Assembly (NCBI GenBank): GCA_013214905.1
Contig: JABSRV010000014.1
Coordinates: 1-36,854 of the forward strand
DNA: 36,854 nucleotides
DNA from: Psychrobium sp.
GTDB taxonomy: Bacteria > Pseudomonadota > Gammaproteobacteria > Enterobacterales > Psychrobiaceae
Direction of reading: 5' to 3'
Below the pieces are notes generated by a model. It had not been told where the DNA came from, did not search any database, and saw only the letters and a program-made list of their open reading frames with translations. Made by a program: the position numbers and the translations under genes. Position 1 is the first letter of the stretch. Each line of letters begins with the position of its first letter. Positions 28,563 through 35,248 of this stretch are shown piece by piece.

Positions 28563-28647
28563 GCCGGTATGGTGAAATTGGTATACACGACGGATTCAAA
28601 ATCCGTTGCTTTCGAGCGTGGCGGTTCAAGTCCGCCTACCGGTACCA
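28563..28647 (+). tRNA. tRNA-Leu (anticodon CAA)
   Basis: 85 bases with encoded CCA. The acceptor arm gccggta/taccggt pairs with a G-U at the first position. The anticodon stem acgga/tccgt has loop ttcaaaa, giving CAA (reads UUG). A long variable arm and the T-arm ggcggttcaagtccgcc are present, as in class II leucine tRNAs. In enterobacteria the corresponding leuX gene is a known island integration site. A terminator follows at once. Confidence 0.95.
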
Positions 28648-29883: not shown

Positions 29884-31029
29884 TTAATCAAGAACTTTAG
29901 CGCCAGGGATATACCCGCCTAACTTTGATACTTCATGTTTTATGTCGTTAGACAGATCAGTTGAACAACCACACCATTTTCGAATTAATTCTATTTCCTT
30001 TAAAAAATTGATATGGCATAAATTACTTATAACTATATTTCTAACTTCTCCATGTCCAATAGCCTGTTTATCGGTCTCAAAATCCGAACCATCATCTAGG
30101 CGGATCCATAGGTGATAATTCATATTTTCAGATAAGTATAGCCTTAAAATAACTCGTCCCCATTTATCAGGTTTAGAATTGAAAAATTGAGTGTTTGATG
30201 AGTAACAATATGGAGGTTTTCTAAATCCAAATATGTCATTATCGCTCCCCAATGAATTAGTGGTTAGGTCATTAAAAGACAAAGATACCCTTTCATTTAT
30301 TTTAAAAGATTCGTCATGGATTTCATCTAATCTATAAGTATCACCTTTAAATTCAAGAACTATGTCACCATTAATAACCAATTCATTCAATTTAACAGAG
30401 GGGGTGACATCTGACATATGAAAGCTAAAATCAGACATTAACTCAAATTTGAAGAATGCAATTCTATATAGATTTTCCACCAATTTACTGTCGGGCTTTA
30501 CTATATAATTTAGCCCTGCATCGGTTAAGATTGACAGTTCTATATGTAATTCTTTATCCGCACTGGTATGCTTGTTCTTACATTCGTTATACCAAAATTT
30601 AAATTTAGGCAATAATAGCAACTCATCAAGAAAGCGCAGTTTTTCATCGTCCGAAGCTGTACCATCAATAACGTTGATACAGTCGAGTATTTCTTTTTGA
30701 TAATCGGCACGTGTTAGTAATTCATAAATTCGATGCTTTAATCTTTCCTTTGATGACTGTGAATAATTATCAGTGAACTCGTTTACTGAGTCATACACTT
30801 CAGCATTCATATACTGTCCTTTACCACGCCTAGGATAACCATAATTATCAATGATGATTTGACGTTGACTCGGTAATAACTTTCCTTTCCCTCTTTTATA
30901 TTCACTTATTCTAGAGCCTTCAAGCCCGAGCAGTTCACCCAGCTCTTTTTGATTTCTACCTTCGTTCAAATAAGCTGATATAGCATGTTGAATCAATAAC
31001 ATCGATTCATTTTTAGATACGGGTTGCAT
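29884..31029 (-). CDS. HTH protein with unrecognised C-terminal domain
   Basis: A 381-residue protein. Residues about 25-55 (QKELGELLGLEGSRISEYKRGKGKL) form an XRE/Cro-like helix-turn-helix, so it probably binds DNA. The remaining roughly 300 residues match nothing I know: a helical part (about 80-150), a mixed acidic part with many aromatic residues, and a C-terminus CGCSTDL...GGYIPGAKVLD that looks like a conserved tail. There is no signal or membrane segment. The start ATG 31029 has GGAA nine bases upstream. It is A/T-rich compared with the core genes and transcribed alone, between repeat copies A and B. A regulator or a defence protein with its own HTH are both possible. Confidence 0.7.
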   Translation of the reverse strand: MQPVSKNESMLLIQHAISAYLNEGRNQKELGELLGLEGSRISEYKRGKGKLLPSQRQIIIDNYGYPRRGKGQYMNAEVYDSVNEFTDNYSQSSKERLKHRIYELLTRADYQKEILDCINVIDGTASDDEKLRFLDELLLLPKFKFWYNECKNKHTSADKELHIELSILTDAGLNYIVKPDSKLVENLYRIAFFKFELMSDFSFHMSDVTPSVKLNELVINGDIVLEFKGDTYRLDEIHDESFKINERVSLSFNDLTTNSLGSDNDIFGFRKPPYCYSSNTQFFNSKPDKWGRVILRLYLSENMNYHLWIRLDDGSDFETDKQAIGHGEVRNIVISNLCHINFLKEIELIRKWCGCSTDLSNDIKHEVSKLGGYIPGAKVLD

Positions 31030-31912: not shown

Positions 31913-31935
31913 GTTCATCATTGCTCGGAGATATC

Positions 31936-32505
31936 ATGGAAGAACATGAAGTGAAAATTTACTTTGGCGGAGATTTGACTAATTTGTATGAATTAGGTTG
32001 GATTTCGTCGGATTTAAGTGCATTGATCGATTTTACCGAATTAGTAGAATCTGGAGATCAAGAGAGAACAGAAAAATACTTTGGTGAAAAAGCTCGTGGG
32101 TTTAATCGTTATACTAAGGTAGTTGACAAACCTCATAAAAGACCTGAAATTGTTGATGTCAGAAAAGGTTCAGTTGAATTAGTTATAGCTGGTTGTAGTG
32201 TTGCAGTAGCTGTAATTATGCCCCTTGTTCAAATTGCGGTACAAAGGTATTTTAATCAAAGAGATGAAGAATTATCTTTTGAAATTAGCCCTCAGGATAC
32301 AAGTTTACAACGAATTATGAATACGTTTGCAAATGGTGAGTTTGGGCGAGGCTCAGAGGGTTTAGAATTGCTAATGTCAATTCTTCAACAAAGGAACTAC
32401 AACGTAACACTTCTTGCTCAAAATATTTATCTTGTTGAGCATGTTATTGAAAAATATTCACAGCGTATAATTAAAACAATTAAAAAGAACCGAAAAAACA
32501 GCTAA
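31936..32505 (+). CDS. Cassette-borne single-helix membrane protein, unknown function
   Basis: A 189-residue protein I cannot place. Residues 1-75 look soluble and charged (KIYFGGDLTNLYELGWISSD). One membrane helix lies at about 80-102 (VELVIAGCSVAVAVIMPLVQ), introduced by DVRKGS. A soluble C-terminal part of about 85 residues ends in a lysine-rich helix. I use ATG 31936, with GGAG seven bases upstream, instead of an in-frame TTG at 31921. The stop codon TAA lies inside the R'' box of the attC-like site, so gene and site form one compact unit. It is convergent with the ATPase gene. A membrane effector or immunity factor is only a guess. Confidence 0.75.
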   Translation: MEEHEVKIYFGGDLTNLYELGWISSDLSALIDFTELVESGDQERTEKYFGEKARGFNRYTKVVDKPHKRPEIVDVRKGSVELVIAGCSVAVAVIMPLVQIAVQRYFNQRDEELSFEISPQDTSLQRIMNTFANGEFGRGSEGLELLMSILQQRNYNVTLLAQNIYLVEHVIEKYSQRIIKTIKKNRKNS

Positions 32506-32554
32506 CAAATAAGAATAGGTGTCGCGTAGCCGACACCTTATTCGGGTGTTGGGC
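32500..32554 (+). other. attC-like recombination site (55 bp)
   Basis: R'' AGCTAAC (32500-32506) opens and R' GTTGGGC (32548-32554) closes the site. Between them lie a spacer aaataa, an imperfect stem gaataggtgtcg / cgacaccttattc with one extra base on one side, and a 5-6-base loop. The outer and inner stems, unpaired spacer and extrahelical base are the features of short attC sites, and the right end gggtGTTGGGC resembles those of classic resistance cassettes. No other convincing attC is visible in the window. Confidence 0.7.
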
Positions 32555-32684: not shown

Positions 32685-34448
32685 CTACCCTGCCATGTAC
32701 TCAATCACAGAGCTTTTAATTTTTTTAACTCGAACATCCTGGATGTACTTCATTCGTACCTCATTCTCTTCTACATCATAAAGGTGACCAATATCTGCAA
32801 ACTTATCACTTAATCTATTTATTATTTTACTTGATAGCGAAAGATTAGAAAGACCGTGCGATCGCAATATTTTATAAAGGGATTCAGGCTCATCTTGTTG
32901 AATTTGAGAGCCACATTTAGGACAAAACTTAAAATTTTCATCAATAGTTCTAAAATCACATTTTGAATCTGTACAGCCAAACTCTGTGGATTCATTCAAT
33001 CGCTCAGAAATTTCTTTAATAAAAAGAGTTGTATCATAATAAGCCTGGTTATTCTCTATAGCGACAGACGTATTTTTTAATTCAGATATGCTCTTTAAAA
33101 CTAAATCGGTAAAAACTAAACTAGGGTTTAATGTTACGTAATAACCATATTTATGGTGACCTATGCTCTTCTTGCTATGATCAATTTTCACTATATTAGA
33201 GTAATCAAGAATAGAAAACATCTTTTCTAATTCATCATAAGCTGTAGTGGAAACAAAAAAACCAACTGATAACTTTCTCTTTTTTTCTATTTGCTTATTA
33301 TTCCATACTCGTAAGTTTGGAATGATTATTTCTTTCATCATATCTTCAGCTTCACTAATATGCTGTGAATATTTAATTAAGCGCTGTTTTAAAGTTTCAA
33401 ATTCCTTCCATTTAATATTAAAAACAGTACGAATAGTATTGATTAAAAACTGGACAGAAATATTAGATTGAAAACCCTTCGTATTTTCAATTTCATCAAT
33501 AATATGAAAGGCAAATCTTGGATTTCCATTACTACAGATACAAATAGTATCTATAATATCTTTATTAATAGTAAGTTTATTCCAGTACCCTTTATCAAAT
33601 TCTTGAATTCTTCTTTGCAATATATTTTTTACATATTTAATGTCTTCCGCACTATGCATATTCCATGAGACTTTTAGCTCTTTAGCATCCTGGCCTCGTT
33701 CAAAGTACTTTCCGTAATTAGTGATGCCTGGGTATACCGCAGCTTTACATGCAATTTTAGGATCTCTTAATGATTTAAAGAAAGTGAAAAATTTTTCCTG
33801 TTGTGAGTGAGAAAAGACATGAGCTGCTTCATCAAACAAGAATACAATTCGACTTAAATTGAAGTCATTAATGAGATTTTTCAAAAACTCTTTAAAATTC
33901 TGAGGGTTATCTAAAATGTTTGTGAGTTCTGTTGACGGTATTTTGTTTTTAAGATCTTGGTTTGTTTCAATATCTGCTTTTTCTAAGACCTTAATGTAGT
34001 CGTTCAATAAAGAGGAGTATTTATCGATATCCGTTTCAATGGAAGATCCAAAAATCACCTCTAGTCTCTTATTAAGCTTAGGAATGCAATCTGGTTTTAG
34101 TTCTTGTAATTTTTTTAATGTTTCTGAGAGGATTTTACCCATTGTCCACTGTAAAAAAGGATCTATGGAGTTATCGACTACAGTGATTCTCTCTATTCGA
34201 ATAGACTCTTCAAAGCTTACCCAAACAGGTAAAATACTATTTTTTCCGAACTCTTTAGTCGACTGCAACATTGCAGCCTTCATAAGCATTGTCTTTCCTA
34301 CACCACGACTTCCTTCTAAAAGATACTGCTCGGAATCTAAAAGCCTTGTAATTTTATCATCATTACGTGTTATGAAATACTTAGTTATTAACTCTTCAGT
34401 CAGACTTTCCGTGCGATCAAGTAAATAATCACCTAACGATTCCTTCAT
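32685..34448 (-). CDS. ORC/CDC6-like P-loop ATPase with zinc ribbon and HhH-like tail
   Basis: A 587-residue ATPase. Walker A is GSRGVGKT (46-53), Walker B IVFLFDE (201-207), and a sensor-2-like SNGNPR (306-311) resembles ORC/CDC6-type AAA proteins. A four-cysteine zinc ribbon follows (C492, C497, C509, C512; C-x4-C-x11-C-x2-C). The last 60 residues, ending DVRVKKIKSSVIEYMAG, look like a helix-hairpin-helix or SAM-like nucleic-acid-binding fold. Together these suggest ATP-driven action on DNA or RNA. The start ATG 34448 overlaps the stop of the preceding gene by 4 bases, so the two are translationally coupled. It is strongly A/T-rich, which points to transfer. An anti-phage role is inference from architecture and context. 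Confidence 0.78.
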   Translation of the reverse strand: MKESLGDYLLDRTESLTEELITKYFITRNDDKITRLLDSEQYLLEGSRGVGKTMLMKAAMLQSTKEFGKNSILPVWVSFEESIRIERITVVDNSIDPFLQWTMGKILSETLKKLQELKPDCIPKLNKRLEVIFGSSIETDIDKYSSLLNDYIKVLEKADIETNQDLKNKIPSTELTNILDNPQNFKEFLKNLINDFNLSRIVFLFDEAAHVFSHSQQEKFFTFFKSLRDPKIACKAAVYPGITNYGKYFERGQDAKELKVSWNMHSAEDIKYVKNILQRRIQEFDKGYWNKLTINKDIIDTICICSNGNPRFAFHIIDEIENTKGFQSNISVQFLINTIRTVFNIKWKEFETLKQRLIKYSQHISEAEDMMKEIIIPNLRVWNNKQIEKKRKLSVGFFVSTTAYDELEKMFSILDYSNIVKIDHSKKSIGHHKYGYYVTLNPSLVFTDLVLKSISELKNTSVAIENNQAYYDTTLFIKEISERLNESTEFGCTDSKCDFRTIDENFKFCPKCGSQIQQDEPESLYKILRSHGLSNLSLSSKIINRLSDKFADIGHLYDVEENEVRMKYIQDVRVKKIKSSVIEYMAG

Positions 34449-35134
34449 GATAATTCCTGTAATAATTGTGTTCTTGAGGCTAATTTATTAATTTCAAAAC
34501 TCGATCTATCATTAAATCTTAAGATGTACATTATCGCTATAATATTCATAATATTTAGGTAATGTGTTTCGAATTGTTTAAATTCAACTTTTTTATATGA
34601 TATTTTTAACGATTCTTTTTTAAACAATGTTTTATTTCTACCATGAACAACATCACATAATTTAGAATATTCAAGAGACAGAAATGAACTAATAGAGTCT
34701 TTATTTTTTTCTAAATCAACAGCACCATTATTAAAAGCTGTAATATATGAAGTCATATAAAATGAATCATCTCGAACTAAAGCGCTTACATATTTATTAG
34801 CTTTAGAGTTTTCATTTTTAGCGATATTCAATTCAATTTTATGATCATAAAAGTAGAACGAGTGGCATGCTAGCTCCAGAATATTTCTCAGGCCAGAAAG
34901 TGCTAATCGATTGTAACCCGATATAGATGCATGAATTACAGATATCACTTCTGAAATGATTTCATTCCAATAGAAGCTAGTATCACTATCAGATTCAGAG
35001 AACCTTTCGCCGATTTCCATAATAGAATTCAAAGCTTCAAGAATACCTGTGAGATCATTATCATGAAGAGTCTCAGTCTGAATCTTATTATTTTTCGCAA
35101 TTAAAGCTAACAGGGTATTTTTTGTGTATGACAT
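34445..35134 (-). CDS. All-alpha HEPN-like protein coupled to the ATPase
   Basis: A 229-residue, mostly helical protein. Two segments stand out: YNRLALSGLRNILELACHSF (74-93), with R83 and E87, and YSKLCDVVHGRN (156-167), with H164. Such paired helices with an R/E-rich helix and a late histidine are seen in HEPN-like and DUF5677-like proteins, but the canonical R-x4-6-H motif is not clear, so nuclease activity cannot be claimed. It is first in a two-gene unit, and its stop overlaps the ATPase start in ATGA. Start at 35134. The promoter should lie within 35135-35250. It is strongly A/T-rich. Confidence 0.65.
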   Translation of the reverse strand: MSYTKNTLLALIAKNNKIQTETLHDNDLTGILEALNSIMEIGERFSESDSDTSFYWNEIISEVISVIHASISGYNRLALSGLRNILELACHSFYFYDHKIELNIAKNENSKANKYVSALVRDDSFYMTSYITAFNNGAVDLEKNKDSISSFLSLEYSKLCDVVHGRNKTLFKKESLKISYKKVEFKQFETHYLNIMNIIAIMYILRFNDRSSFEINKLASRTQLLQELS

Positions 35135-35248
35135 ATCAAATATCAGTTAATTCAAGTAGATGTAAGCTAAATAAAAACATTCAAAAAGTCAATCTATGAT
35201 ATATATTTAGATAGTCCCTCCAGCAGTGTCAGGAACAGCAAAGATGAA

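Follow-up and report, generated by a model that had tools for sequence, protein, structure and literature searches.

Near the end of a Psychrobium sp. contig, two overlapping genes raise the question of whether an ORC/CDC6-like ATPase and a HEPN-like protein form a two-gene defence module, as a preliminary description of the sequence had proposed. The window considered here is the whole stretch of DNA that was analysed, 36,854 nucleotides in length. Both genes lie on the minus strand. The first (34445–35134) encodes a HEPN-like partner of 229 aa and the second (32685–34448) an ORC/CDC6-STAND-type AAA+ ATPase of 587 aa, and these ORFs reproduce exactly the coordinates proposed earlier, including the ATGA start/stop overlap at 34445–34448. 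A terminator-like hairpin, recognized by its consensus match only, is found 3′ of the pair on the same strand (32517–32538). The G+C content of the pair is 30.7%, compared with 43.8% in positions 1–28400 of the window, so that the genes are indeed more A/T-rich than the core genes.

An ORC/CDC6-STAND-type ATPase with an alpha-CTD-like tail

The window ATPase matches the Pfam family ORC-CDC6-like (PF24389; E 1.8e-11, 43.9 bits versus a cutoff of 27), with the best-scoring stretch covering only the N-terminus and the P-loop (residues 12–67 of 587). The same family was matched at E 0.01 or better by all 77 homologues scanned; the accession was not found mentioned in the open literature searched. 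Among known structures, the AlphaFold2 model of the ATPase (pLDDT 91.4) comes nearest to Cdc6/Orc1 (2qby; 256 residues aligned, Z 14.2) and then to the archaeal STAND-like ATPase 2qen (Z 13.2 over 321 residues), an alignment of the whole model that extends to residue 450, a C-terminal winged helix being possible. CED-4, plant NLRs and RADAR RdrA (Z 11.6) follow among the structural matches, and the model also resembles the DNA-binding proteins Cdc6, TnsC and MuB.

The sequence motifs agree with this assignment. Walker A (GSRGVGKT, residues 46–53; 34290–34313), Walker B (FLFDEA, residues 203–208; 33825–33842) and the sensor-2-like GNPR (residues 308–311; 33516–33527), all on the minus strand, are 100% conserved in the 77 homologues, with G46, R48, G49, G51, K52, D206, A208, G308, P310 and R311 invariant and either E or D at position 207. 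With Walker A and B, an ORC-type core fold and GxPR all present, the protein is an ORC/CDC6-STAND-type AAA+ ATPase. Downstream of this core are a four-cysteine zinc ribbon (C492, C497, C509 and C512; 32913–32975, minus strand), which weakly matches Zn_Ribbon_1, and a C-terminal helix-hairpin-helix (HhH) domain (32688–32876, minus strand). Zinc-ribbon and HhH/alpha-CTD families are matched by many of the 77 homologues, the tail being assigned to RNA_pol_A_CTD in 18 and to HHH_5 in 15. Every element that had been read from the sequence (P-loop, Walker B, GNPR, zinc ribbon and HhH tail) therefore proved real, and the tail can be refined to an HhH domain resembling the RNA polymerase alpha-CTD: the family profile matched the alpha-CTD of PDB 3gfk at E 3.8e-6, and the RpoA of the same genome was also matched. 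Judging from these profiles, the tail is of the HhH class and its nearest sequence relatives are RNA polymerase alpha-CTDs, the likeness being at fold level only because the columns of the alpha-CTD interface residues R265, N268 and K298 are not conserved. For the same reason, the idea that the tail is a decoy mimicking the RNA polymerase alpha-CTD to trap phage factors is unsupported.

Elsewhere in the genome, a 712-aa ORF (L114 2091–4226, G000:C404) matched the ATPase profile weakly and locally, over the P-loop region and a second stretch; it is probably another P-loop protein.

Near-constant pairing with two families of HEPN-type partners

When 84,980 species genomes and viral contigs were scanned under the guidance of profiles, 102 loci were obtained, among them 80 genome loci that were the best of 170, and the addition of six earlier loci (the window copy and five plasmids) gave 108 ATPase homologues. 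Queries built from alignments found homologues, and scans with a single protein gave none in viral contigs, phages or a class sample. A HEPN-type gene adjoins the ATPase gene in 107 of these 108 homologues (best 80 of 170 genome loci included), the exception being L081, a locus that ends at a contig end. The homologues of the two genes are thus adjacent almost without exception rather than rarely, a pairing far beyond chance, and the intergenic gaps mostly range from −4 to +10 nt. The set was gathered by the ATPase, with adjacency in the reverse direction checked on a few cases: among 398 genomes of the phylum, two further matches to the window-type partner were detected, one of which adjoins the ATPase. 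The other, a distant member of the partner family, shares its operon with a ParA-type ATPase, and the family is therefore also paired with another ATPase. This three-gene operon (L122 2541–4570, G411) encodes the ParA-type ATPase, a 149-aa protein and the distant HEPN-like protein, and a convergent gene of 617 aa lies downstream.

The partner occupies one of two positions. The window-type partner (U) is immediately upstream of the ATPase gene in 70 of the 108 homologues and a different partner (D) immediately downstream in 37, while none has both. The D partner is of the RiboL-PSP-HEPN type and has an Rx4H motif, RHxxVH; HEPN_RiboL-PSP (PF18735) was weakly matched by 10 of 31 D partners. Treating U and D as one family was rejected (hhalign probability 0.2%), the D partners of these sister subtypes having no detectable profile homology to the partner in the window. 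Since no sequence relationship can be detected between the two families, both are HEPN-type, and one is placed upstream and the other downstream, the ATPase lineage has either taken up HEPN-type partners on two or more occasions or swapped them. In the ATPase tree, U and D form two clean halves (support 100). The zinc ribbon pattern was seen in each of the 36 D-type ATPases examined and in 13 of the 67 of U type. Within the D half, a 13-member clade, sampled from plasmids and IMG/VR contigs, adds an N6 methylase directly upstream of the ATPase. Four subtypes can thus be distinguished: U with zinc ribbon, U without zinc ribbon, D, and D with N6 methylase. The window does not belong to the last, as its ORFs include no N6 methylase directly upstream of the pair. 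At L099–L108, L003, L005 and L006, the genes for the N6 methylase, the ORC-type ATPase and the RiboL-PSP-HEPN-type protein are consecutive, an arrangement like that of restriction-modification (R-M) systems, although no DNase is visible among the three genes.

Distances between ATPases and between their U partners are strongly correlated (Mantel r 0.91 for 65 pairs, 0 of 2000 permutations); the two proteins co-diverge.

A HEPN-like partner with an altered motif

Sequence and profile searches with the window partner gave no Pfam match and no convincing family match, although DUF5677 was weakly matched by 19 of its 62 relatives. Searching PDB sequences with partner profiles yielded nothing useful, and there was no significant match in a viral-protein fold library or, using the partner model, in Foldseek (best E 0.27). 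The model, built from an alignment of 61 sequences, is confident (pLDDT 89.8) and all-alpha; plasmid loci were left out of the alignments used for structure prediction. In a structural second look, HEPN proteins and Csm6 fill the first six of 981 aligned chains (2hsb, 1wol, 2q00, two Csm6 entries and 4nqf). When the putative four-helix core (residues 48–210; 34505–34993, minus strand) is aligned to 2hsb, 121 of 126 residues are covered and Z is 8.1, a value that is low for helical bundles, unrelated ones reaching 6–7. Together, these comparisons lend moderate support to a HEPN helical core fold.

Motif conservation was examined in the U homologues. R83-x3-E87 (34874–34888, minus strand) is present in 69 of 70, the remaining one being gapped, and the HG of H164-G165-R166 (34637–34645, minus strand) in all 68 ungapped rows. 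R83, E87, Y156, H164, G165 and R206 are nearly invariant, and R83, E87 and H164-G165 vary only in truncated copies. R166, by contrast, is restricted to the clade of the window, most of the family having HGN. The Rx6H motif (R157-x6-H164) is found in 55 of the 70 homologues, and the window has S157-x6-H164 instead; members of its clade carry S, G or K at 157 together with HGR, and position 157 or position 166 is basic in every U homologue that is not truncated. The preliminary description had likened the R/E and HGR motifs of an all-alpha protein to HEPN effectors. The all-alpha fold, the conserved R/E motif and the ranking of HEPN proteins and Csm6 bear this out in part, but HGR is clade-specific and the canonical arginine of HEPN Rx4-6H is missing from the window partner. 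Because the Rx4-6H motif is absent, we call the protein HEPN-like and do not class it with the active HEPN RNases. With S157 replacing the arginine, its catalysis may have changed or disappeared, and the residue patterns would also fit a catalytic arginine that was possibly relocated in this clade, HGR taking the place of Rx6H.

Compared with the HEPN superfamily (Anantharaman et al. 2013, PMC3710099), the partner shares a helical core like that of 2hsb, 1wol and Csm6, a conserved late histidine and an association with ATPase and R-M genes, but differs in lacking a Pfam HEPN match and, in the clade of the window, in having HGR and no Rx4-6H arginine. HEPN families without this arginine are listed in the same work. 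One could thus regard the HEPN-like protein as a non-catalytic adaptor and the ATPase as the active part, which would remodel or block invading DNA through a DNA-directed mechanism. The predicted likeness of the ATPase to DNA-binding Cdc6, TnsC and MuB points the same way, and ORC/TnsC-like ATPases do remodel or block DNA. Such an adaptor is nonetheless quite improbable: the near-invariance of H164, R83, E87 and R206, together with the basic character of 157 or 166, suggests that the active site has been retained, and the D-type partner still has Rx4H.

A variable tRNA-Leu site and a scattered distribution

The left edge of the variable region that contains the pair is a tRNA-Leu(CAA) gene (28563–28647, plus strand), the nearest tRNA to the pair. 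The flank comprising an RDD gene and this tRNA was matched in 10 of 10 genomes of the genus, and the ATPase gene was absent from all nine genomes other than that of the window. A closer look at six relatives revealed no other cargo gene of the window at the tRNA-Leu site. The placement of the pair in a tRNA-linked island is therefore upheld. The same island encodes a 381-aa protein with an HTH-like start (29884–31029, minus strand) and a 194-aa protein (31921–32505, plus strand), neither with convincing family matches. Imperfect intergenic direct repeats (76–85%) punctuate the stretch, namely 28775–28918/35451–35594, which brackets a 6.7-kb block containing both genes, 29136–29239/31280–31383, 35237–35342/36216–36321 and 29649–29689/31729–31769; parts of them recur in congeners at the same tRNA-Leu site. 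Two congeners have the tRNA-Leu 3′ region duplicated downstream of the tRNA (L153, 18589–18660; L154, 2815–2924), consistent with an integration hotspot whose cargo differs among relatives.

Homologues are scattered over many phyla, including one archaeon, most on genome contigs and some on plasmids. The closest full-length homologue (best 80 of 170 genome loci) is from a Bacteroidota genome and is 71% identical, while within the class the window-type partner is rare, found in the genome of the window alone among 369. A Colwellia fragment (L014 6295–7702) matches positions 33775–35177 of the window at 84% DNA identity, beginning just upstream of the HEPN-like gene; this pair is decayed, a frameshift splitting the HEPN-like gene and the ATPase being truncated after about 225 residues.

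An ORC/CDC6-type ATPase with a DNA-binding tail, carried in some cases by plasmids, could also be the initiator of a mobile element, acting in replication or partition with an accessory helical protein. This is highly improbable, as most homologues are on genome contigs and no conserved adjacent replication genes were seen among their neighbours; moreover, we know of no HEPN-type proteins that serve as replication factors.

Genomic company and known defence systems

Among 94 neighbour proteins of the homologues, strong PADLOC matches include type I, II and IV R-M, AbiU and PbeA, whereas the matches of 82 control proteins, drawn from 13 Pseudomonadota stretches only, are mainly to UvrD-like, RtcR-like and mad3-type models and mostly look like housekeeping proteins. 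This plain comparison is suggestive of defence-gene company. With the PADLOC-DB 2.0.0 profiles, the window ATPase gave only weak matches (best 0.0031) and the window partner none, the only matches of the partner families being weak ones to RTasHEPN, Csx1/Csm6 and AbiP. Membership of the homologues in PADLOC mad8 or PDC-S01 was rejected, as the similarity is weak (best 1.3e-5 and 2.8e-6).

The preliminary description knew of no named anti-phage system with this pair, and we likewise found none in PADLOC, NCBIfam or the open literature, a search that did not extend to preprints, papers behind a subscription or the present DefenseFinder models; structure prediction returned ORC/CDC6 and HEPN-like folds, and neither a known system nor a housekeeping function surfaced. 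ORC/CDC6 ATPases and HEPN domains have been described in conflict systems (PMC3710099, PMC10853773, PMC12839542), but not as this pair, and the linkage of HEPN domains with R-M and AAA+ subunits is an established theme (PMC3710099). In systems related to type-1 BREX (PMC12839542), the ORC/STAND AAA+ ATPase DUF499 (BrxC-like) is functionally linked to HEPN; there, however, HEPN is often fused to the multidomain ATPase, which has wHTH and RRM-fold domains, whereas the window encodes the two proteins in distinct genes and its ATPase bears a zinc ribbon and an alpha-CTD-like HhH. PARIS (AriA ATPase and AriB) and RADAR RdrA may share the two-gene logic of NTPase sensor and effector (PMC9122126), but have other ATPase families and other effectors (TOPRIM, adenosine deaminase). 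Overlap with the E. coli systems of the DefensePredictor paper (PMC13092281) is unlikely because no E. coli homologue was found at the DNA level.

A toxin–antitoxin or addiction module, in which the ATPase would hold a HEPN-like toxin and mainly stabilize the island or plasmid, would account for the compact overlapping pair, the plasmid homologues and the tRNA hotspot here, and HEPN toxins are common in such modules (PMC3710099). We consider it unlikely, since the ATPase is large and has sensor-like nucleic-acid-binding domains, one subtype includes a DNA methylase for which an addiction module has no need, and many R-M genes are among the neighbours.

A candidate sensor-effector module

The predicted folds and the near-constant adjacency support the candidate two-gene module of a HEPN-like protein and an ORC/CDC6-like ATPase, and on balance the pair is probably a portable sensor-effector defence module. 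The sensor-effector reading is based on the architecture, the conservation, the association of a single ATPase lineage with two families of HEPN-type partners and the kinds of genes nearby; a defence role is further favoured by the closest full-length homologue being in Bacteroidota while congeners lack the ATPase gene. We infer complex formation, nucleic-acid sensing, RNase activity of the HEPN-like protein and defence, the last on circumstantial evidence. The module is most likely of the abortive-infection type, with the ATPase sensing foreign nucleic acid and releasing a HEPN RNase. The ATPase would be a nucleotide switch whose zinc ribbon and alpha-CTD-like HhH domain serve to read nucleic acid; depending on nucleotide, it would restrain the HEPN-like partner or build active dimers from it. 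Upon infection, the switch would change state and the HEPN-like protein would act, most likely by RNA cleavage, leading to growth arrest. In the methylase subtype, the N6 methylase may mark self DNA, so that the complex would resemble an R-M system whose target is RNA.

More tentatively, and short of what we would call probable, the homologues could constitute a widely distributed and so far undescribed group of immune modules. In these, HEPN RNases that can replace one another would be under the control of an ORC-type ATPase whose reader resembles an alpha-CTD; one subtype, marked by a methylase, would restrict invaders through cleavage of RNA and not of DNA, and in the clade of the window the catalytic arginine would have been relocated (HGR, not Rx6H). 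The strict pairing makes these genes a clean candidate, with one ORC-type switch lineage joined to two unrelated HEPN-type partner families. If they are a defence system, they would represent a widespread sensor-effector family missed by current profile libraries, and their subtypes would point to an R-M-like system with RNA as its substrate.
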